A DNA stretch of 64,000 bases from NCBI GenBank assembly GCA_904373265.1, contig CAJFEE010000001.1, positions 124,001 to 188,000 on the forward strand, given 5' to 3'. Origin of the DNA: Candidatus Harrysmithiimonas galli. Lineage in GTDB: Bacteria > Bacillota > Bacilli > CAJFEE01. The translations under genes were made by a program, and so were the position numbers. The notes below the pieces were generated by a model, which was not told the origin of the DNA, made no database searches, and was given only the letters and a program-made list of their open reading frames with translations. Positions 1 through 30,388 of this stretch are shown one piece after another (within the stretch, counting starts at the first letter, position 1; every line of letters starts with the position of its first letter).

Positions 1-864
1 CAACAACGATACGTGGCATGATTACTAACGAAAAATACACTGGCGACGTCATTTTCCAAAAGACCTACACCGATTCTCAATTTAACCGCCATGTCTTATG
101 GACAAAAAGATCGGTATGCGCTTGCCGATCACCATGAGCCCATCATCAACCGAAAGGACTTTGAAGCTGATGGTGCTCTGATTACACAACGCGGTCTCGA
201 AAAAGGCATCATAAAAGGCAACGGTAAGTACCAAAACCGCTACTGCTTCTCTGGCAAGATTATTGGCAACGAGTGTGGCGATACTTTCAAGCGGCGAATA
301 CACACCTGTAGCAATTACAAATACGTGGCATGATGCTGCAACACCCACATCAATGATAAAAGCCGCTGCTCCATGAAGTACATTCGTGACGATGAGCTGA
401 AAATGGCTTTTGTTACGATGGTCAATAAGCTGGTTTTTGGGCATCGAATTATACTCAAGCCCTATGTGGAAGCCATAAAAGGCGTCAGCAAAGACACTTC
501 CTTACGCAGGATTCAGGAAATCCAAAGTCTGCTGCTTGAAAATGCCGAACAGAGAGAAACCCTGACCAAGCTGATGGCTCAGGACTATATCGACCAGATC
601 TTTTATAACGAAGAAAATAATGCGCTTTTATTACAGACAGATCAATATAGAGCAGAAATGACTGCTTTGAACAAAAGCCTTACCAGAGATACCACATTAG
701 TAACTGCTGCTCTCGATTTGCTGCGATTTATAGATAAAGGCGTAATGCTGGACGCTTTTGATGAAGAATTATTCGAAAAAACAGTAGCCCGTATTCGGAT
801 GCTCTCCCGACAGGAAGTTGCCTTTGAATTAAAATACGGGCTTACGCTCAAAGAAAGGACGTAA
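1..864 (+). pseudogene. Large serine recombinase, C-terminal part, broken
   Basis: This is the recombinase and zinc-ribbon part of a large serine recombinase whose catalytic N-terminus lies left of the window. Translation starts in frame 3 (reading ...RGMITNEKYTGDVIFQK), shifts frame near base 90, continues in frame 1 through the zinc ribbon, and meets TGA at 331-333 where a Trp codon is expected (YVA-stop-CCNTHINDKSRCS). It then continues in the same frame through a long helical C-terminus to 864. The first Cys of the zinc ribbon also seems lost (IIGNECGDTF). One frameshift plus one nonsense codon mean no full-length enzyme. A second recombinase begins 4 bases downstream; tandem serine recombinases are common in clostridial mobile elements. 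Confidence 0.8.
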
Positions 865-868
865 GGAC

Positions 869-1005
869 ATGGGACACACACCATACGGATATCGAATAGA
901 AAACGGGATCGCTGTGGTTGACGAGGATGCAGCCGGAAAGCTGCGAAGACTCTATACGAATTACCTCTCCAGTATGAGCTTGAAGACTGCTGCAGCAGAG
1001 GCCGG
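869..1005 (+). pseudogene. Second serine recombinase, N-terminal fragment cut by the prophage end
   Basis: The start MGHTPYGYRIENGIAVVDED and the run through YTNYLSSMSLKTAAAEAGI are typical of the short recombinase-domain protein that follows a full-length serine recombinase in clostridial mobile elements. The ATG sits 4 bases after the stop of the preceding gene with GTAAGGAC as a weak ribosome site. The family resemblance ends at about 1000-1010. Beyond that the plus-strand frame reads antisense to the phage resolvase-like gene and is not recombinase. The junction is therefore either the prophage insertion point or a deletion scar. The end coordinate is approximate. Confidence 0.65.
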
Positions 1006-1365
1006 AATACGCCCTGCATCTTCCACTTCATCCAGACAGAGGACTTCCACCTGCGCCTTTTCACAGATTTCCATAAATTCCATAAACTGTCCCCAATTCC
1101 TGGCAATCATCGCCGCCCGGACAGAAACCACTACATCAATCTCATCTTGTGAAATATCCTGTTTCAGACGGTTGAACTCCTTTCTGTCCGGATCAGCGCC
1201 AGAGGCTTCTTCAAAATAGATTTTCAGTTCCCATTCCTGCTTTCCATAGGCTCTTTCCAACCGTTTTTTTACATCATCCAAAAACTGCGTATAATCATGA
1301 TCTCTATGATTCATACGACAGTAAAAAGCCACCCGGTTCACTCTTCCTGCTATTACCATTTTCAC
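961..1365 (-). CDS. Resolvase-like protein lacking the catalytic serine
   Basis: It resembles the N-terminal domain of serine resolvases (RVNRVAFYCRM..., then GADPDRKEFNRL and AAMIARNWGQF). The position normally holding the nucleophilic Ser of the R-V-S motif is Asn (YCRMNHRD), so strand cleavage is not expected. The GTG at 1365 is preferred because AAGGAG lies 5 bases ahead; an ATG two codons later is possible. The C-terminus (RIPASAAAVFKLILER) crosses the junction with the truncated recombinase, so the natural end may have been lost. It follows the lysis genes on the same strand, separated by a terminator and a leader element. Role unknown; it might be a regulatory or accessory recombination protein. 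Confidence 0.55.
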   Translation of the reverse strand: MKMVIAGRVNRVAFYCRMNHRDHDYTQFLDDVKKRLERAYGKQEWELKIYFEEASGADPDRKEFNRLKQDISQDEIDVVVSVRAAMIARNWGQFMEFMEICEKAQVEVLCLDEVEDAGRIPASAAAVFKLILER

Positions 1366-1377
1366 AAGTTCTCCTTT

Positions 1378-1402
1378 CTTTTTTGGTAGTCTATCTATCA
1401 CT
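1378..1402 (-). promoter_or_regulatory. Leader element E (short copy)
   Basis: Read on the minus strand this is AGAGTGATAGATAGACTACC followed by A-rich sequence and AAGGAG, 13-35 bases before the resolvase-like gene. It matches the core of four longer copies at 23.5, 24.3, 25.0 and 27.9 kb (AGAG, then A..AT, then CTACC). A TTGACT hexamer lies 16 bases upstream of TGATAG, so the core may include a promoter. No long hairpin is attached in this copy. Confidence 0.4.
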
Positions 1403-1480
1403 CTGAAGCCCCGGAAAGTCAAGCAGTTTCACCATTTCCACCGGTTTTTGCTTCCACTCTCGCCAAACTTATCCTCTGCA

Positions 1481-8955: not shown

Positions 8956-9602
8956 AGTCTCCCCTCCCGGTAGCGAAAGGTGGTCATGCCATCAGTGGTC
9001 ACCGTCAACTGGTTTTCTCCGGCCTGCAGCTCCATCTCCGGAAACTCCCAGGTACCGGCGCTGACTGATTTACGGAATTCCTCCTCTCCGACTCTCCAGG
9101 CAAGCGCCGTTTCTCCGGTGGTTTCCACCACAGGGACCACGGGCATGTAATCATTGGAAAGCGTAACGATACCGCTGCCAGACTTTGTGACCACGGTTTC
9201 TTTTACGTGGTAAAGGTAGGAATCTCCATCCTCACAGGACAGGGTAAGCTGCCCTTTCCCAGTCAGCGGATCATAAGCCGGCTCCACTTCGATTGTTCCA
9301 ATGGCATACACCTGTGGGGTGTCGGAACAGATAACCTTGCAGAGCCTTCCGGCAAAGCAGTTCACCACTTCTGCCACTTTTGCATCAAACTGTGTCCTGC
9401 TCCCCAGCATGGATAAGAGGATGGTAAACTCCCTGGGCTGATAGGAAATGCTCCCCAGAGCCTCCGTATAACGGATCGGGGCATTCCGGCCCGGCACTAC
9501 AATCGTATTCGTCTGGGACTGTGGTGTGGGAAAGTCCACACTCTCCCGCAGCCATCCCAGAGTAAATAAGGAAATATCATTGATCTTCACATCTGGTCTC
9601 AT
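8952..9602 (-). CDS. Distal tail protein (Dit)
   Basis: A 216-residue protein that begins MRPDVKINDISLFTLGWLRE and has the pattern of clostridial phage Dit proteins: an N-terminal belt region with VVPGRNAPIRYTEALG near residue 36, and a C-terminal galectin-like part (TLSNDYMPVVPVVETTGE, EMELQAGENQLTV). Dit forms the hexameric ring joining tail tube to tip. It overlaps the tape measure gene by 4 bases upstream and the Tal-like gene by 4 bases downstream. Confidence 0.85.
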   Translation of the reverse strand: MRPDVKINDISLFTLGWLRESVDFPTPQSQTNTIVVPGRNAPIRYTEALGSISYQPREFTILLSMLGSRTQFDAKVAEVVNCFAGRLCKVICSDTPQVYAIGTIEVEPAYDPLTGKGQLTLSCEDGDSYLYHVKETVVTKSGSGIVTLSNDYMPVVPVVETTGETALAWRVGEEEFRKSVSAGTWEFPEMELQAGENQLTVTTDGMTTFRYREGRL

Positions 9603-12589
9603 AAACTCAGCCTCCTGTTCAGCTTCTGTGCCTGCCCCAGCTTACTGTCAATGACCGGGAGCAGATGGCCTACCAGAGCCCCATCCTCCAGATAAATCCC
9701 CTTGCTGCTGTTGACCGCAATGACCGCCAGGTATTTCTCCATGACGCTGGTATTCATCCGGGTGGATAAGATCTGCTCCAACTGATTGTAAAAGCCCCGA
9801 AGCGGCAGGATTGCTTCCTTCCCGGCTTCCCCGCCAGCCATGAGGCTGCTGCCGTTCATGCCAAAGATGGTCGGTTTCGTCATAATGCCGCCTTCCTTGT
9901 ACCAGTCAATAGACAGATGGGGGACGCTGGACGGAGAAAGCGAGAGTTTTCCACTAATCTTAAAATGAGGCAGCTTGATCTTTGGAAGTTCCAGCTTCAT
10001 ACCTGAGAAAAAGCCGCTGATCTTATCCACGATCCCTTTAATAGTGTTCTTTGCCGCCTCAATCGGCTTTGTGATCGCCGTCTTAATGCCATTCCAGACC
10101 GTGGTTGCCGTGCTTTTGATCTCGTTGAATACTGACGAAACTGTACTCTTCACCGCATTAAACACCGTGGAGACTTTGCTCTTAATCCCGTCCACTACTG
10201 TGGAAATGACAGATTTAATCCCATTCCAGACAGAGGATGCCACGGACTTGATCGCATTAAATACCGTGGTGACCGTATTTTTGATGGCGTTTACCACAGA
10301 AGAAACCTTGCTGCTGATGGCATTCCAGATCGAGGACATGACGTTCTGGATCGTCCCCATCACGGAGGAGATCACTCCGGACACTGCCTGGATGGCCGAG
10401 GATACCACGGATTTGATTGCGTTCCAGACCGAGGTCACGATCCCCTTACAGTTCTCCCAGATCATCTGGAACGGCAGGGTGATGATCTGCACAGCCCCCT
10501 GGATGATAGAACCTAAGAGCATCACGGCAGTCTGTACCACGTTGCAGATGCCATTCCACACGTTCTGCAGATGGGTCCACAGGTTAGAAAACCAGGTCTT
10601 TAAGGCTTCCACCATGGAACCAATTCCGGTGCAGATGGTATTCCATAAGTTCCCAAACCACTGGGTGATCGCTCCCCAATTCTGGATAATGGCGATAATC
10701 CCTGCAATGGCTGCCGCCACCGCTGCAATCACACCAATGATCGGGAGCATAGAGATGTTCAAAGCCCCCATCGCAACAGAAATGGCGGCGATCACGGGCG
10801 TCAATGCCGTAAAAGCCGCCAGAAGCGCACCGAGGATGATGACAAAGTTCTGCACTGGTCCTGGCAGACGCTCAAACCATCCACCAATCGTGGTAATCAC
10901 CGCCACCAAAGGTGGCAAGATGGCATTGGCAAGCTCCGCCAATTTCTGTCCTAAAGGAACCAGTGCCTGCTGCAGCTTCTGGATGTTTGCCTCCATCTGC
11001 TGCATAGGTGTGGTCGTTGCATCAAATAGCCCCTGCGCAGAACCCTTTACACTGTCATAGGTGCTGCCTACAGAGGTCAGGGAAGTAATGAATTTCAGGT
11101 TCCCATCCTCGGCCATGGTGCCAAACGCCAACGCTGCCAGGTTCAGGGCTTCCTGCTGATTGGTGCAGTTGCCAATATCCGCCACGATGGAATCAATGAC
11201 CTGTTTCTGGGTGGCCCCACCATTCTGCCAGGAAGCGAACAACTCCTGCGTCCGGGTGGAGAAAGAGCCAATGGACTCCCCGATGGTCCCATCCACCAGA
11301 CGGGTGGTCACCTCGTTGATGGCATCGTTGACCTTGTCCAGGTTGTAAGCACCATTCTTTAAGCCGTTATCCAGAAGCTGAAAATACTCCGAGGCGGAAT
11401 ATCCAGCCTGGGAGAACTTGCCTGCATATTCATTGAGGTTATCTCCCAACTCATTAGTCTTATCCAGGCCATTCTGCGTTCCTACCACAATGTAGTCCAT
11501 AGCCTCCTGGGCAGTCAGGCCATACTGCTGCATGAGGGAATTGACGCCCCGAAGGGTTTCATTCATATCAATCCCGTACAGTTCTTCCAGGGTGATAGCT
11601 TGCTGAGTCAGATTTGTCAGATCCGTCTCACTTAAATCCCCCAGGTTCTTTTTGACCATGAGGACTGCATTGGCAACGGTATCCATGCTCTCGCCAACGC
11701 CCGCGGAATACACTGCTTTGATCACACTGGCCGACTGCTCTGCCGCCTGCCCGGTCTCTCCAAAGTAGGCGTTGACCTTGGTCACCGCATTCTCCGTATC
11801 GGAATAGGCTTCCAGGGCATTGGTGCCGATCTCCTGGATCTTATCTCCCACAGCCGACAACTGATCGGCCGCCTGCATAAGTGCTGTACCCTTGGTGTTC
11901 TCCGCAATCTGCCCCACGTCCTCAGCGGTATTCTGGGCGGCATCCCCGGCCTGGTTCAGTTGCTCGATGAGGTTGCGGATGGCCTCCCCATCATCTACCG
12001 TATCCAGAACATCGGTAAGCTGCCGGATATCTACTTTTCCTCCGGCTGCGGACTTCCCGATCTTCTCAAGAGCTGTCCGCAACTGATCGGAATTGGCAGT
12101 CCCGTTTTTTATAGCCGAGGTCAGCCGGGTACCAAGGACATCCGCATAGTCATCAACTTGCGTCCCGGTGGCAGAAAACAGCTTTTCCAGGCGGGCCGTA
12201 TTCACAGACAACTGGTCCTGCTCCGTTTGGAGAGACGTCAGGTCATTCTTATACTGATTGAGTTTCCCCCTGGTTTCCTCCACTTCCCGCTGGAATGCCT
12301 GGTACTTTTCCGCACCAATATCCCCTCGCTGAAAAGCGGCAGCCACCTGCTCCTGGGCAGACTCCAGGGCCTTTAGCTTATCCTCCGTCTGGCCCACTGC
12401 CTGGGAAAGCAGCTCCTGTTTTTGTGCCACCAGGACCGTATTGGACGGGGCCAGTTTTAACAGCCGGTTCACATCATTTAAGGCCGACTGCGTTTTTGTG
12501 ATCGAAGAATTGATGCTCTTCAACGCTTTGTCAAGCCCTGTGGTATCGCCGCCGATTTCCACGGTGATCCCCTTGATCCGGTTTGCCAC
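9599..12589 (-). CDS. Phage tail tape measure protein
   Basis: It sets tail length and is ejected with the DNA. From the GTG at 12589 (GGAGG 9 bases upstream) it is 996 residues. The N-terminal third is coiled coil (ALKSINSSITKTQSALNDVN). A conserved region around 330-480 carries NLGDLSETDLTNLTQQAITL-type helices. A hydrophobic stretch near 570-640 (VAAAIAGIIAIIQNWGAITQ) is the probable membrane-inserting segment. Residues 690-840 are an 11-residue repeat with Trp or Phe (VWNAIKSVVSS, VFNAIKSVASS, VWNGIKSVIST), typical of tape measures. It lies between tail chaperone and Dit as expected, apart from the inserted efflux gene. Confidence 0.9.
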   Translation of the reverse strand: MANRIKGITVEIGGDTTGLDKALKSINSSITKTQSALNDVNRLLKLAPSNTVLVAQKQELLSQAVGQTEDKLKALESAQEQVAAAFQRGDIGAEKYQAFQREVEETRGKLNQYKNDLTSLQTEQDQLSVNTARLEKLFSATGTQVDDYADVLGTRLTSAIKNGTANSDQLRTALEKIGKSAAGGKVDIRQLTDVLDTVDDGEAIRNLIEQLNQAGDAAQNTAEDVGQIAENTKGTALMQAADQLSAVGDKIQEIGTNALEAYSDTENAVTKVNAYFGETGQAAEQSASVIKAVYSAGVGESMDTVANAVLMVKKNLGDLSETDLTNLTQQAITLEELYGIDMNETLRGVNSLMQQYGLTAQEAMDYIVVGTQNGLDKTNELGDNLNEYAGKFSQAGYSASEYFQLLDNGLKNGAYNLDKVNDAINEVTTRLVDGTIGESIGSFSTRTQELFASWQNGGATQKQVIDSIVADIGNCTNQQEALNLAALAFGTMAEDGNLKFITSLTSVGSTYDSVKGSAQGLFDATTTPMQQMEANIQKLQQALVPLGQKLAELANAILPPLVAVITTIGGWFERLPGPVQNFVIILGALLAAFTALTPVIAAISVAMGALNISMLPIIGVIAAVAAAIAGIIAIIQNWGAITQWFGNLWNTICTGIGSMVEALKTWFSNLWTHLQNVWNGICNVVQTAVMLLGSIIQGAVQIITLPFQMIWENCKGIVTSVWNAIKSVVSSAIQAVSGVISSVMGTIQNVMSSIWNAISSKVSSVVNAIKNTVTTVFNAIKSVASSVWNGIKSVISTVVDGIKSKVSTVFNAVKSTVSSVFNEIKSTATTVWNGIKTAITKPIEAAKNTIKGIVDKISGFFSGMKLELPKIKLPHFKISGKLSLSPSSVPHLSIDWYKEGGIMTKPTIFGMNGSSLMAGGEAGKEAILPLRGFYNQLEQILSTRMNTSVMEKYLAVIAVNSSKGIYLEDGALVGHLLPVIDSKLGQAQKLNRRLSL

Positions 12590-12615: not shown

Positions 12616-12676
12616 ACAAAAAAAGCCCGGATCGCTCCGAGCATGAAAAAAGCACCGATTATTTCTAACCGATGCT
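12616..12676 (-). terminator. Two tandem intrinsic terminators with GNRA-type tetraloops
   Basis: On the minus strand the first hairpin is AGCATCGGTTA-gaaa-TAATCGGTGCT (stem 12651-12676, two G-U pairs), followed by six Ts. The second is GCTCGGA-gcga-TCCGGGC (12625-12642), followed by seven Ts. They lie between the SMR efflux gene and the tape measure start. They would stop transcription from the cargo gene and, unless read through, also the late operon. Confidence 0.75.
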
Positions 12677-12717
12677 ATATACTGTCAAAATTTCATTATT
12701 TATCACATGATTCTCTA

Positions 12718-13041
12718 CTAATGTGCTGTACCATACAAATTTAAGATCACACAGCCCGCTACAATCAAAATGATTCCTATAATTCCAAGCGTACTCAATT
12801 TTTGCCCAAATATTATAGAAGAAATAATGGCTGTAGCAACAATCCCACCTGCACACCATGTTGCATACGCTACACCCAAATTTATCTTTAATAACGCTTT
12901 TGAAAAGCAGTAAAAGCATATCACATAAAAAATGATACAGCTAATAGATGGAATCAGTTTTGAAAAGCCTTCTGACGCTTTAAGTAATGTAGTCGCTATG
13001 ATCTCCAATATAACAGCACTTCCTAGTAATATATATTGCAT
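12718..13041 (-). CDS. Small multidrug resistance (SMR/EmrE-type) efflux protein
   Basis: A 107-residue protein with four membrane segments, the usual SMR length. The proton/substrate-binding glutamate is E13 (SAVILEIIATTLLK, equivalent to EmrE E14). Y59 and W62 in the VAYATW motif match EmrE Y60 and W63. IIGIILIVAGCVILNL is the usual fourth helix. SMR dimers exchange protons for quaternary ammonium compounds or, in the Gdx subfamily, guanidinium; EGFSKLIPS and AYATWCAGG favour the Qac/EmrE side. GGAGGAAAG lies just before the ATG. It is more AT-rich than the flanking phage genes and is followed by tandem terminators, the signature of a cargo gene (moron) inserted between tail chaperone and tape measure. 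Confidence 0.9.
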   Translation of the reverse strand: MQYILLGSAVILEIIATTLLKASEGFSKLIPSISCIIFYVICFYCFSKALLKINLGVAYATWCAGGIVATAIISSIIFGQKLSTLGIIGIILIVAGCVILNLYGTAH

Positions 13042-13227
13042 ATCTTTCCTCCAACTATCTTAGATTTTTTAAGGTAGTGAGAGGCAAATCATTCATATTC
13101 GCACCAAATGCCAATCCACATCAAAAATCGTTTATTCCTTCTGCTCATGATCTTCTCCTAAGAAATCAGTCCGTTGCTTTCGCAGCTTTTTCAGTGTACC
13201 AAAAAAAGTCTGTGAAAGCAACGAGCA

Positions 13228-13763
13228 TCAGAACTTATCGAAATCCTCCTGGGTTGCCACCCGCCTATATTTCACGCCATCGTTTGCTCGCTCGGTCCAC
13301 ATATCGATAACCAGACCAACCGTCAGCAAGTCCAGATCGGAGATGGAAATCCCAATCTCAGTACTCCGCAGAAGGAACAGGGGCGTGGTCATCTCCCGCT
13401 CACTTCTGCCAATCCTTTTTTTGCTTGCACATCCGTAGCAATATTATCGCCCCACAGTTCCAGAATCTGCGGCAGTACCTCATAGATAGAGAACATATCG
13501 AACTGATCCAGCCATTCTTCAATGGTAGCCGGGATGCTGTTGTCCGCATGATAGGCCATGATATAGGCCACGTTCTCAAAAATTTCCAAATCCTCAATCT
13601 GGAACTCTGCTCCTTCTGTCTGGTTCCCCGTATAGGATTTCTCCAGCTTGCTTAAATCTTTGAAGATATCCCTCTTAAATTTTGCCCGGTACAACCGGGG
13701 AATGGTCGCAGAGGAACGAAAGGGGATCTTCTTCCCACAGATTTCGATTTCCCGCTTGATCAT
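13228..13763 (-). CDS. Tail assembly chaperone, short form plus -1 frameshift extension (gpG/gpGT type)
   Basis: The unshifted product ends at 13389 (124 residues, MIKREIEICGKKIPFRSSAT to AEVSGR). A slippery run of seven A (minus strand, 13416-13422) is read as gcA-AAA-AAA. Slipping by -1 continues KKRIGRSEREMTTPLFLLRS through DLDLLTVGLVIDMW to RRVATQEDFDKF and stops at 13228. That extension is the conserved second chaperone domain of clostridial siphoviruses, with the FLLR...DLDLLT...YRRVA.QEDFDKF pattern. The ratio of the two products is set by frameshifting and helps assemble the tail around the tape measure. It lies directly after the major tail protein, overlapping by 4 bases. Confidence 0.85.
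13416..13422 (-). promoter_or_regulatory. Programmed -1 ribosomal frameshift site
   Basis: The minus strand has AAAAAAA in the phase A-AAA-AAA, followed by GGATTGGC. The downstream -1 frame is open for 63 codons and encodes a conserved domain; the 0 frame stops nine codons later. This is the standard arrangement in tail chaperone genes of long-tailed phages. Confidence 0.8.
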
Positions 13764-14362
13764 ACCTGCTCCTCCTCATTCTCAGTTTCTCCTGTTTCTG
13801 CCGGAGTATAAACCGATTTATACCAGTTCGCATAGGTTGTCGGATCTGTGGTATCACCAGTGCGGGCTTTTACCAAACCATCCGAGCGGGGATCTGCTGT
13901 CAGAGACAACGTCTCCGTACCCGGCTCAATGGTATCCTCTTTGGTCTCCGACTCGATAGACGGATGGGAGGCAGAGCAGTTATACAGCACATGCCGGATT
14001 GCATTCACATCTCCGTCAAACTCAAACATCAGGGCAAACTTCACGCTCTCTGCCACATCGCTCTTCTCTATCAGTACGCCCTTGTCATCCTTCTTCTCCT
14101 GCAGGATATCCGTGCGGAACCACTCCGGGATCAGAGCAATCTCCAGATCACCACTGTATCCGTTGTTTGTCACAGAACGGAAATACACAATCCCACCTGC
14201 ATAGAACGGGCTGGATTCCCCTTCTGCATCCAGACTGATACTGACTGCACCCGGAATGGCCTGTGGCGTTTCATAAGAAAAGGAGGGCGTTCCCTCCTGA
14301 TCTGTTTCTGTCATTTTCGCCGCATGGACGTTTTTTAGATTGTATTTTACTTTATTTCCCAT
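13760..14362 (-). CDS. Major tail tube protein (phi13-type)
   Basis: A 200-residue protein beginning MGNKVKYNLKNVHAAKMTET, characteristic of the phi13-family major tail protein of Firmicute siphoviruses. The body contains ALIPEWFRTDILQEKKDDKG and a central beta region (KFALMFEFDGDVNAIRHVLY), with a C-terminal tail rich in Glu. It polymerises into the tail tube. The gene lies between the tail completion proteins and the tail chaperone, as expected, and its stop overlaps the next start by 4 bases. Confidence 0.85.
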   Translation of the reverse strand: MGNKVKYNLKNVHAAKMTETDQEGTPSFSYETPQAIPGAVSISLDAEGESSPFYAGGIVYFRSVTNNGYSGDLEIALIPEWFRTDILQEKKDDKGVLIEKSDVAESVKFALMFEFDGDVNAIRHVLYNCSASHPSIESETKEDTIEPGTETLSLTADPRSDGLVKARTGDTTDPTTYANWYKSVYTPAETGETENEEEQV

Positions 14363-26141: not shown

Positions 26142-26350
26142 TCGTACCTCTGTTGATGCTGATGGATAATCTCGATGATCGCATCCTGCTCCTCTGCGCT
26201 GATTTCCAGTTCTGCAAGGGCTTCCCTGGTCCCACAGTCCGGGCAGATCAAAGAGGTATTATCCGCTCTGGAAGTCGCAGGCACCCCGTGGTAGGGCTTC
26301 CCACACTTTTGGCAAATCTTAATCGTCTCAATCTTGCATCCCATTTTCAT
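26138..26350 (-). CDS. Small zinc-ribbon protein
   Basis: A 70-residue protein with two Cys pairs: KICQKCGKPYHGVPATSRAD and LICPDCGTREALAELEISAE. The C..C(15-20)LCPDCGTREAL pattern is common in small phage proteins of Firmicutes. Probably nucleic-acid or protein-binding. It overlaps both neighbours by 4 bases (ATGA-type), sitting between the gamma-glutamylcyclotransferase-like gene and the 111-residue gene. Confidence 0.65.
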   Translation of the reverse strand: MKMGCKIETIKICQKCGKPYHGVPATSRADNTSLICPDCGTREALAELEISAEEQDAIIEIIHQHQQRYE

Positions 26351-26808
26351 ACCTCCCTTTGGCTGTCAGCATATGCCTGCCGCAGTTTTTCCTGATCAAA
26401 TCCAAAGAATCGGTATCCCTGGGTGCATGTTGCCAAGTACCGCATTGATGGGAGTCCTAGAGGACGTTCCTCATGCATGATATAAACAAATGTTTTTCGT
26501 ACCCGTACCTTTCCGGTCCGGATACCCGTAATGGGGATCTGAAGCTCCTTTTTATAATAGAAACTCGGATATCCTTCATACCTGTCCAATGCCAGTTCAT
26601 CCGTCTCACTAACCGACCAGACAGCGACCGGAACACTGCTTCCCTCTTTTGGCTCAATCGTAAGATAGGAGCCTGTCTTGCTACCTTTAAAAAGTAACTG
26701 GTAGTCTTCGATGACCGAGGTTCCAGCCACCCTGGCATCCGGGCAGCGCATCAGCATTTGACGGATATTTAAGTTACTCCCGTATGCAATATAGTATCGT
26801 TTCTTCAT
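26347..26808 (-). CDS. Gamma-glutamylcyclotransferase (GGCT/AIG2-like) protein
   Basis: A 153-residue GGCT-fold protein. YYIAYGSNLNIRQM carries the YGSNL phosphate/substrate loop, and LALDRYEGYPSFYYK contains the catalytic Glu (YEGYP). Members open or close gamma-glutamyl linkages, releasing 5-oxoproline. The neighbour 86 bases upstream encodes an amidoligase. Amidoligase-GGCT neighbours were described in phage and bacterial genomes by comparative genomics (the amidoligase family analysis of Iyer and colleagues). The pair may make and cleave peptide-like amide bonds, but the substrate is unknown. Confidence 0.85.
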   Translation of the reverse strand: MKKRYYIAYGSNLNIRQMLMRCPDARVAGTSVIEDYQLLFKGSKTGSYLTIEPKEGSSVPVAVWSVSETDELALDRYEGYPSFYYKKELQIPITGIRTGKVRVRKTFVYIMHEERPLGLPSMRYLATCTQGYRFFGFDQEKLRQAYADSQREV

Positions 26809-26894
26809 CCTGAATCCATCCTTTCTGAAGGGCTTTCCCTCCTACCACCTTAAGACCGCCGAAGCGGTCGGAAGTGGGCCTGTGGCTATCTCCT

Positions 26895-27845
26895 TCAAGC
26901 GGCTGCCCTGCCATTCCTAAAGGAAACGTCACCGGAAAGTCTCCTGGTCAGGATATCCCTTGCTGTTTTAAATTCGTCCCCGATAAATCCAAGCCAGAGG
27001 AGCCAGGTTCTCATGGCATATTTCGGATTTTCATTCTGTTGTGGCTTGGGGCTTGCCGAGCGTACCGTCTTCGCCATCTGGCTCAGTGCAAGGCAAAGCT
27101 GGATGTAGCTTTTAAGCTGCCCAGCGTGGAGTCCGCCTCTGCGCTCCGCAGTCGGGGCATCAAACTGGAAAAGCCTGAATTCAACCGTTCCCTTTGTAAA
27201 AGTCGCATGGTAGTTCAGCATGTGGTAGCGGCTCCTGTTATAATGATGGCTTCTTCCATAGTCCTCCCCATGTGAGGTATACCAAATGTCTGCCAAGGCT
27301 GACATGGTTTTTGATTTTTTCCGGTTCAGTTCCTTCAAAAACCGTAGGTCTACTGTCCGGCAGTATTGGCGCATCCGGCCTCTGTCCAGATTTAACGCAT
27401 CTGCGATCAGGCTCTCATGGCTTGCCATAATGTTTGCAAGGTTGCGAAGCGTCTGCGGCGTATGACCTTTGGCTCCGATGTGAATGTGGACTCCGCATCC
27501 TCTTGAGGCATCACTTTTTGCCCCTGCGTGCCGAAGCTGCCGGATGAGTTCCTGCAGGGTTTCCATATCTGCGTAGGTAAGAACCGGAGTGACCAATTCA
27601 CATTTTTCGCTGTCCGGTCCTTCAATGCTGACGTCCTTCTGGAATTTCCATTCCCGTCCGTCTGCATCCCATGCTGACCAAGTGCTGTATCCGTTCCTCC
27701 TTGCCGTGTTCTGATATCTCCTCGTTCCAAAGTAGCGGGCAGCGATTTTTGCAGCATTCTCTCTTGAGATGCCATTCATCTCCACCTCAACTCCGATGGT
27801 CTGCTTTTTCATTTCCTCAACCTGTCTCATAATCTTTTCGTTCAT
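26895..27845 (-). CDS. Amidoligase family enzyme (PF12224-like)
   Basis: A 316-residue protein of the glutamine-synthetase-like amidoligase superfamily. The N-terminal IGVEVEMNG strand carries the metal-binding acidic pair (E.E). EGPDSEKCELVTPVLTYADM holds an ExVTP motif, RGCGVHIHIGAKGHTPQTL the conserved CGVHIH motif, and TVEFRLFQFD the VEFRLF motif. The family forms amide bonds between a carboxylate and an amine with ATP. The C-terminus has Ser/Lys-rich linker sequence after residue 262. It opens the accessory operon downstream of leader element D and lies next to a GGCT-like gene. Confidence 0.88.
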   Translation of the reverse strand: MNEKIMRQVEEMKKQTIGVEVEMNGISRENAAKIAARYFGTRRYQNTARRNGYSTWSAWDADGREWKFQKDVSIEGPDSEKCELVTPVLTYADMETLQELIRQLRHAGAKSDASRGCGVHIHIGAKGHTPQTLRNLANIMASHESLIADALNLDRGRMRQYCRTVDLRFLKELNRKKSKTMSALADIWYTSHGEDYGRSHHYNRSRYHMLNYHATFTKGTVEFRLFQFDAPTAERRGGLHAGQLKSYIQLCLALSQMAKTVRSASPKPQQNENPKYAMRTWLLWLGFIGDEFKTARDILTRRLSGDVSFRNGRAAA

Positions 27846-29011: not shown

Positions 29012-30388
29012 TTATACAATATTTCGTTTGAGCAGAGCGACTGTCTCCACATGTCCAGTCTGAGCAAACATATCAACAGGCTGTACTTCTTTTACTTTAT
29101 AATCACTGGTTGCAGTCAAAATTTGTAGATCACGGGCAAGAGTGGCTGGATTGCAACTAACATAAACCATTCGGCTAGGTGAAGCAGTAAGCATCGTTTG
29201 CAACAGGTGCTTATCACAACCCTTGCGCGGTGGATCAACAACAATCACATCTGGCTGAATACCAGAACAAATCCATTGAGGAATCACCGTTTCTGCTTTA
29301 CCCACTTCAAAGCGCACATTATCCATTCCATTTAACTTTGCATTTTGCTTGGCATTTTCAACTGCTGCTTCCACAATTTCCACACCATATACCGCCTTGG
29401 CTTTCTGCGCCAAAAACAAAGAAATTGTTCCGACACCGGAATAAACATCAAACACAACCTCATTTCCAGTTAGTCCAGCGTAATGCAAGACTTGCTCATA
29501 CAAAACCTTCGTTTGTATCGGATTAATTTGATAAAATGAAAGAGCAGAGATCGCAAATTTCACAGAACCAATGTAATCATAAATATATTTTCGTCCATGC
29601 AACAGCTTTGTTTGTTCACCCAAAATTACATTGGTTTTTTGAGGATTGATATTTTGAACAATGCTTTGTACCATTGGATAACGTTTGGTAATCTTTTTGA
29701 CTAAAGCCTGCCCTTCTGGAAAAACTTTCGTACGTGTAACCAAAACAACCATTACCTCACCAGTTGCTTTAGCCTCACGCAACATAATATGTCGCAAAAC
29801 ACCAGTATGCTTTTGTTCATCATATGGTTCGACTCCAAGTTGACTCGAAATTTGCTTAATCCATTGCAAAATCTGATCATTCGTTTCTGATTGAATAAGA
29901 CATGTATCCATTGGGATCATCTGATGTGTTCGTTGACGATAAAAACCAATCTCCAACTGCCCGTCTACACTTGCAACAGGAACCTGTGATTTATTACGAT
30001 AATTCCAAGGATTTCCCATCCCTTGTGTTGGACAAACCGTTATATTTTCTAAATATCCAATTCGTTTCAATACCTCTGCGACTCGTTTTTGTTTATATGC
30101 CAACTGTGCTGGATAAGAAAGATGTTGAAGCGTACAACCTCCACATAACTTAAAAAAGCGACATGGTGCCTCAACTCGATCTGGACTTTTTGTATACCGG
30201 AAAACCATACGTCCATAAGCAAAAGATTTTTTCACTTTTGTTAAAGCAATCAATGCCCGCTCTCCAACAAGAGCATCAGCAACAAATACCGGAAAACCGT
30301 TAATTTTTGCCACACCAAACCCCTCATGTGTTAAATCTTCAAACACCACTTCAAACTGCTCGTTTTTATGAAAAGTCGTTTCCTTCAT
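29012..30388 (-). CDS. rlmCD: 23S rRNA (uracil-C5)-methyltransferase, RlmCD type
   Basis: A 458-residue TrmA/RumA-family enzyme that methylates C5 of uridines in 23S rRNA. An N-terminal TRAM domain (HKNEQFEVVFEDLTHEGFGV) is followed by the iron-sulfur cysteines CRFFKLCGGCTLQHLSYPAQ. The SAM-binding VFDVYSGVGTISLFLAQKAK follows, then DVIVVDPPRKGCDKHLLQ and the catalytic YVSCNPATLARDL. In Bacillus the single enzyme (yefA) sits next to dgkB, as here apart from the intervening island. No other partner is in its transcript. Confidence 0.92.
   Translation of the reverse strand: MKETTFHKNEQFEVVFEDLTHEGFGVAKINGFPVFVADALVGERALIALTKVKKSFAYGRMVFRYTKSPDRVEAPCRFFKLCGGCTLQHLSYPAQLAYKQKRVAEVLKRIGYLENITVCPTQGMGNPWNYRNKSQVPVASVDGQLEIGFYRQRTHQMIPMDTCLIQSETNDQILQWIKQISSQLGVEPYDEQKHTGVLRHIMLREAKATGEVMVVLVTRTKVFPEGQALVKKITKRYPMVQSIVQNINPQKTNVILGEQTKLLHGRKYIYDYIGSVKFAISALSFYQINPIQTKVLYEQVLHYAGLTGNEVVFDVYSGVGTISLFLAQKAKAVYGVEIVEAAVENAKQNAKLNGMDNVRFEVGKAETVIPQWICSGIQPDVIVVDPPRKGCDKHLLQTMLTASPSRMVYVSCNPATLARDLQILTATSDYKVKEVQPVDMFAQTGHVETVALLKRNIV

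Follow-up and report, generated by a model that had tools for sequence, protein, structure and literature searches.

A Qac-like SMR transporter gene is carried as cargo at a recurrent tail-gene junction of a siphophage-type prophage

A prophage of Candidatus Harrysmithiimonas galli carries an SMR transporter gene between its tail chaperone and tape measure genes, which raises the questions of whether an efflux gene at this position is a regular part of the phage or cargo, where it came from, and how it might be expressed amid genes for the virion. The window, the whole stretch of 64,000 nucleotides that was analysed, holds the gene together with its phage neighbours. We consider it highly probable, from the sequence comparisons described below, that the gene is a moron in a recurrent slot of a Heliusvirales-like siphophage, with signals supplied by the slot, a Qac-type pump as its product, and probably some attenuation by a leader.

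The gene, its signals, and the bordering phage genes all lie on the minus strand. Upstream of the slot are the major tail protein gene (13760..14362; TIGR01603, PHROG 88), a tail-chaperone ORF of 124 residues (13389..13763; PHROG 709), and a second tail-chaperone ORF of 54 residues (13228..13392; PHROG 3033), which forms the 5' border of the slot. The two chaperone ORFs share 73–93% and 83–87% identity, respectively, with their counterparts in NatCom phages. The 3' border is the tape measure gene (9599..12589; PHROG 58, E=1e-144; Pfam PF10145). Its start is most likely the GTG at 12589, which is preceded by the Shine-Dalgarno (SD) sequence GGAGG and yields a product of 996 residues, because the resulting length of 2991 nt matches the annotated tape measure genes of the NatCom relatives L083, L085, and L086. 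The ORF start listed by the program, at 12655, would overlap the terminators.

Junctions of related phages were gathered by means of both chaperone ORFs, giving 89 complete, non-redundant cases. Their sizes are clearly bimodal. Forty-three junctions are empty, ranging from a 1-bp overlap up to 96 bp, and 46 are loaded with 345–3675 bp, with none between 96 and 345 bp. The cargo is unrelated between phages and includes an ArsR/ArsP/thioredoxin/LMWPc operon, a flavin reductase, a GNAT acetyltransferase with an isochorismatase, a metallo-beta-lactamase fold, TIR, MerR, RelB, Phd/ParE, YafQ, an Mrr nuclease, an AAA ATPase, and an integrase. An SMR gene is found at this junction in the window only (1 of 89). 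With 43 junctions empty and the rest holding unrelated cargo, the SMR gene does not belong to the constant gene set of these phages. Its presence as a fixed gene is what a sequence-only reading of this DNA had named as contrary to its proposal of a cargo gene at a conserved junction; the proposal itself agrees with the census. Two loaded junctions may be described individually. In Blautia phage NatCom_24097 (L086:3967-6155), the junction is filled by an operon of ArsR, an ArsP permease, thioredoxin, and an LMWPc/ArsC-like protein. In another phage (L179:1509-2381), a tyrosine integrase is the sole cargo, which may be relevant to the way in which the slot acquires its contents.

The SMR gene has a G+C content of 0.346 and a GC3 of 0.296, compared with 0.46–0.53 and 0.53–0.67 in the chaperone, major tail, capsid, portal, terminase, and tape measure genes. 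The sequence-only reading had remarked on this AT-richness, which is real but not special to the SMR gene: in 27 of 28 loaded junctions, the cargo has a lower G+C content than the phage genes upstream of it (p=5e-8). A moron is defined as an extra gene between two adjacent phage genes, with its own promoter and terminator and an unlike base composition (PMC4378225). The SMR gene sits as an extra gene between adjacent genes, has a predicted promoter and terminator, and deviates in base composition; by these sequence features it is a moron, or cargo gene. It resembles the morons of lambdoid and Mu-like phages (PMC4378225) in being an extra gene with its own signals and an unlike composition. Unlike in those morons, the promoter palindrome and the terminators of the window are homologous between phages with unrelated cargo and behave like fixtures of the slot. 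As far as a limited literature search could find, such constant signals at both ends of a slot whose cargo changes are new, as is a unit of leader and SMR gene.

The SMR gene (12718..13041) encodes a Qac-like protein of 107 residues. Its match to PF00893 spans model positions 1–93 of 93 (E=6.6e-25; 87.9 bits, above the gathering cut-off of 23.7), and among the PHROGs it matches best with 1395, a moron-category family annotated as 'quaternary ammonium compound-resistance protein QacE' (E=4e-28). The complete gene with E13, Y59, and W62 that had been read from the letters is present as described, and these three residues, like G96, are invariant across all 82 aligned relatives. In a PDB search, EmrE structures were matched with E=1e-22 and the next SMR group (6wk5 and kin), which we take to be Gdx-type structures, with 9e-12. 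NCBIfam models score 97.2 (QacCGHJ), 93.3 (QacC), and 88.7 bits (EmrE family) against 49.6 bits for SugE, with all curated cut-offs (103–226 bits) missed. Position 16 is Ala, which is Qac-like; this position is W in Gdx and G or A in Qac proteins (PMC7695847). The protein is a probable quaternary-cation exporter. No second SMR gene adjoins it and its loop lysines are nearly balanced by eye; a dual-topology homodimer is therefore likely. With dN/dS values of 0.09–0.17 against three relatives (L003, L005, and L022), the gene is intact and, as judged by its substitutions, under purifying selection.

Phage-borne SMR proteins of the Qac type also occur as EmrE/QacE in lambdoid phages (4A7 and others) and as emrE of prophage DLP12. 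The 4A7 gene lies after ren in the early region, not among tail genes. The phage-borne match has about 45% identity, with 77% of the query covered. We know of no leader ahead of the EmrE/QacE genes of lambdoid phages.

A moron at the same junction is gp15 of HK97 (AF069529), a single small gene that follows the frameshifted tail chaperone and precedes the tape measure gene, with a putative terminator 12 bp before the latter; predicted terminators likewise follow the SMR gene of the window. HK97 has one annotated terminator, whereas the window has two, and gp15 is not an SMR protein; a passage of PMC10884400 that cites Cumby 2012 gives it as a superinfection exclusion protein. On the strength of that annotated moron with its terminator, the small membrane protein of the window could be supposed to act in superinfection exclusion rather than efflux, and defence-like cargo (TIR, Mrr) at other junctions would suit such a role. 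We regard this as very improbable. The protein has full SMR length and keeps E13, Y59, W62, and G96, although residues for transport would not be needed for exclusion, and it shares strong purifying selection with chromosomal relatives, its nearest kin being a chromosomal Lachnospiraceae clade.

In the protein tree, the SMR protein of the window nests among sequences from Lachnospiraceae and further Clostridia, in a clade with support 100/97, beside two Mediterraneibacter sequences (L003 and L005). The nearest relative, L003, has its SMR gene in an ordinary chromosomal setting with an adjoining HtpG-like gene. The host possesses a second, Qac-like SMR gene (contig C27:27786-28106; L249), which directly follows a TetR-type regulator and whose product has 47% identity to the phage copy. 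This protein is placed among Bacillaceae in the tree, and the host's own SMR gene is ruled out as the source by the different groupings. The Bacillaceae placement also points to Bacilli as the class of the host, whose assembly yielded no 16S gene. By its position in the tree, the SMR gene of the window therefore comes from a Clostridia-type donor and not from this host. A plasmid origin was also considered and rejected, as no similar plasmid DNA was found. A search of viral contigs for close relatives of the SMR gene returned none. The prophage as a whole is foreign in composition, with about 50% G+C within a chromosome of 36%; the phages that it resembles are those of Blautia, Faecalimonas, and Dorea.

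Two predicted terminators close the slot. Terminator 1 (12651..12676) has a GAAA loop and terminator 2 (12625..12642) a GCGA loop, each with a T run; the stem of the second ends about 36 bases ahead of the tape measure GTG. The terminator scanner reported four terminator-like sites in 0.9 kb, against 0.8 expected. Of the 46 loaded junctions, 42 have a terminator in their final 110 nt, compared with 2.5% of shuffles and none of 46 coding controls; 15 of the 18 empty junctions of 25–200 nt have one as well. One of the four loaded junctions that have no recognisable terminator before the tape measure gene (L156:4588-5291) carries a RelB toxin-antitoxin cargo on the opposite strand. Tandem hairpins homologous in sequence to those of the window stand behind unrelated cargo in several phages (L083–L086, L143, L158–L161, L171, L206, L216, and L218), and homologous hairpins are also found in L157, a 96-bp junction that holds no cargo. 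Terminator 1 has homologues with compensatory changes in unrelated cargo contexts, terminator 2 has homologues in other phages, and 6 of 18 consensus pairs of the terminators show changes on both sides.

Since homologous hairpins follow unrelated cargo and occur in the nearly empty L157, the tandem terminators, as predicted from sequence, belong to the slot and not to the SMR gene. They are not specific to a cargo and so provide no evidence for capture of an SMR cassette as such. The sequence-only reading, in which two GNRA-loop terminators close the SMR gene, was correct about the hairpins but not about what they belong to. It also overlooked two elements described below, namely the promoter in a palindrome at the 5' end of the slot, which is conserved in eight phages, and the leader ORF with its SD-sequestering hairpin in the SMR unit. 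A terminator at this place may, in addition, lower expression of the tape measure gene relative to the major tail protein.

The slot entry contains a putative promoter, TTGCTT-17-TACACT (13193..13221), with an extended -10 element (TGG) and a -35 element that begins 7 nt past the chaperone stop. It is embedded in a long inverted repeat (13172..13223) whose 20-nt arms are 85% complementary. The left arm consists of the -35 element and the spacer, and the right arm of the initially transcribed region, with the -10 element in the loop between them. A promoter of the form TTGnnn-17-TAnnnT with an extended -10 element is found 7–8 nt past the chaperone stop in the window, L083, L084, L142, L165, L261, and L262, and one of the same type 15 nt after the stop in L309. 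Such promoters are present in 12 of 58 junctions, compared with 1.4% of shuffles. The promoter of the window is the weakest of the set, matching 7 of 12 consensus positions, and was missed by a general scanner with a threshold of 9 of 12. A palindrome is found without such a promoter in a minority of the other loaded junctions (L085, L160, and L215), and most of the more distant loaded junctions have neither.

The arms covary across the eight phages. They are too divergent for a usable MAFFT alignment, and duplex energies of arm against arm were used instead. Arms paired with their own partners have a mean energy of -24.3 kcal/mol, compared with -12.1 kcal/mol for pairs across phages, and only 1 of 20,000 random assignments was as good. 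The coincidence of promoter and palindrome in eight phages could also mean that the palindrome is an operator at which a repressor regulates the cargo at the DNA level. This is doubtful in our view. The arm sequences differ between phages while their self-complementarity is kept, and the arm occurs nowhere else in the window; in the host genome, exact matches are limited to the two arms themselves, with three further places at one mismatch. Divergent arms that have no other exact copies are more in keeping with a structure than with a binding site common to the phages. A dyad recognised by regulators that differ from phage to phage would be a further alternative to such a structure.

Between the promoter and the SMR gene lies a 19-codon leader ORF, MSRRNKRFLMWIGIWCEYE (13089..13148), with the SD sequence AGGAG. 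A hairpin between the leader stop and the SMR start (13048..13084) is predicted to pair the SD sequence of the SMR gene, GGAGG. The chromosomal contig L022, from an uncultured Eubacteriales bacterium, has a related leader, MSRRNKKFIMWIGIWSEYE, ahead of an SMR gene with 68% protein identity. The two leaders are identical at 50 of 60 nt (83%), a higher value than the 72% of the SMR genes, and their differences are distributed over the codon positions as 3/1/6. The 60 nt upstream of the leaders match at 16 positions, which is chance level. As the homology begins at the leader ATG, the cargo is, on these alignments, a leader-SMR unit whose two parts travelled together, under a promoter that belongs to the phage. 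A tRNA-like gene, recognised by eye, lies just upstream of the unit in L022 (L022:4380-4460), and the unit there may itself sit on an island.

The organization resembles that of the ErmCL-ermC attenuators and of BmrB-BmrCD, in which a short leader ORF precedes a hairpin that hides the SD sequence of a resistance gene (PMC5118997; PMC5417439). Unlike in these systems, the target in the window is an SMR pump, and the leader sequence is unrelated to theirs by eye. In addition, BmrB acts on transcription, in contrast to the translational control proposed for the SMR gene. Leader and hairpin, known from two sequences, suggest translational attenuation of the ErmC kind.

The alternative is that leader and hairpin form no attenuator, the ORF encoding a separate small protein or occurring by chance and the SMR gene being translated constitutively; we put this somewhat short of an even chance. 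In the window, the SMR SD is paired with a probability of 0.992, but 51 of 1000 shuffled spacers attain as much; for L022, the corresponding figures are 0.997 and 20 of 1000. The shuffled mean is already 0.69–0.76. The fold of the whole leader region is not unusual (z=-0.39). An Rfam search upstream of the SMR gene yielded no element at the gathering score and only chance hits below it; a guanidine riboswitch was excluded on the same grounds. The leader ORF is absent from 23 other close SMR loci. A search for the leader motif in viral contigs and in 400 genomes of the class brought up nothing beyond chance ORFs, the true second copy being that of L022, and two genomes of the host's order gave no other match to the leader-SMR unit. 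An attenuator is favoured by the homology that starts at the leader ATG, the higher identity of the leaders than of the genes behind them, the changes mainly at third positions, and the pairing of the SD in both sequences by unlike stems. If it functions, this would be, to our knowledge, the first SMR gene under translational control by a leader peptide.

The state of the prophage bears on whether the gene has a role there. The prophage parts scanned yielded no early, replication, or repressor genes. Pieces of a serine recombinase lie on both strands at window positions 1-1422 and in L247:19307-20000, the main one apparently broken by frameshifts. Further left, on the opposite strand, are phage-like genes for a holin, an amidase, a ParB-like protein, and a methylase, so a second, decayed element adjoins the prophage. 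Because replication and repressor genes were not seen and the recombinase pieces look broken, the prophage may have lost the ability to produce virions and be defective, in which case its lytic cycle would be hypothetical. A gene resembling a 23S rRNA uracil methyltransferase (29012-30388; TRAM, tRNA_U5-meth_tr), situated where the high-G+C block has its right edge, is a likely attachment target. An amidoligase and gamma-glutamyl cyclotransferase pair (26347-27845) at the early end of the late operon is likely a second accessory module.

A prophage that seems incomplete at its left end, with no early genes in the parts seen, might have trapped the SMR gene by accident, the gene having no role there. 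We find this improbable: the reading frame, the leader, the SD sequence, the promoter spacing, and both terminators are intact, and the same architecture with other cargo is found in complete phage genomes. The SMR gene is probably expressed from the prophage.

In the model that we favour, the slot would supply a sigma-A-type promoter, embedded in a palindrome just past the chaperone stop, and, ahead of the tape measure gene, a tandem pair of GNRA-loop terminators. In the lysogen, the slot promoter would be on and the late genes silent; the transcript would run through the leader ORF and the SMR gene and end at the terminators, leaving the tape measure gene off. During lytic growth, late transcription would enter from upstream and pass the terminators at least in part. 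Read-through in late expression, and resistance of the lysogen to quaternary ammonium or other cations, were both put forward in the sequence-only reading and are plausible. One possible reading of the palindrome is that the late read-through RNA would carry both arms and fold, whereas the promoter-made lysogenic RNA would lack the left arm and carry only one. The leader and SD hairpin would travel with the SMR gene, and a ribosome slowed on the leader would probably open the SMR start site. The product would act as a dual-topology Qac-type pump that moves hydrophobic or quaternary cations out against protons. A more ambitious version is possible, though on the unlikely side: the junction may serve as a modular expression socket, in which the palindrome promoter and GNRA-loop terminators are kept while the cargo is swapped, the palindrome tells the origin of a transcript, and a leader-attenuated SMR gene has been plugged in.

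Temperate phages of gut-type Firmicutes may thus maintain, within the late operon, a standing site for expressing genes that benefit the host while leaving the virion genes undisturbed, its cargo including efflux, arsenic-resistance-like operon, toxin-antitoxin, TIR, and nuclease genes. As the slot is bounded by two recognisable signals, it could be used for systematic mining of cargo. If the leader works as proposed, the SMR pump would be tuned by translation, which would link a cation exporter to ribosome-acting compounds or to amino-acid supply.
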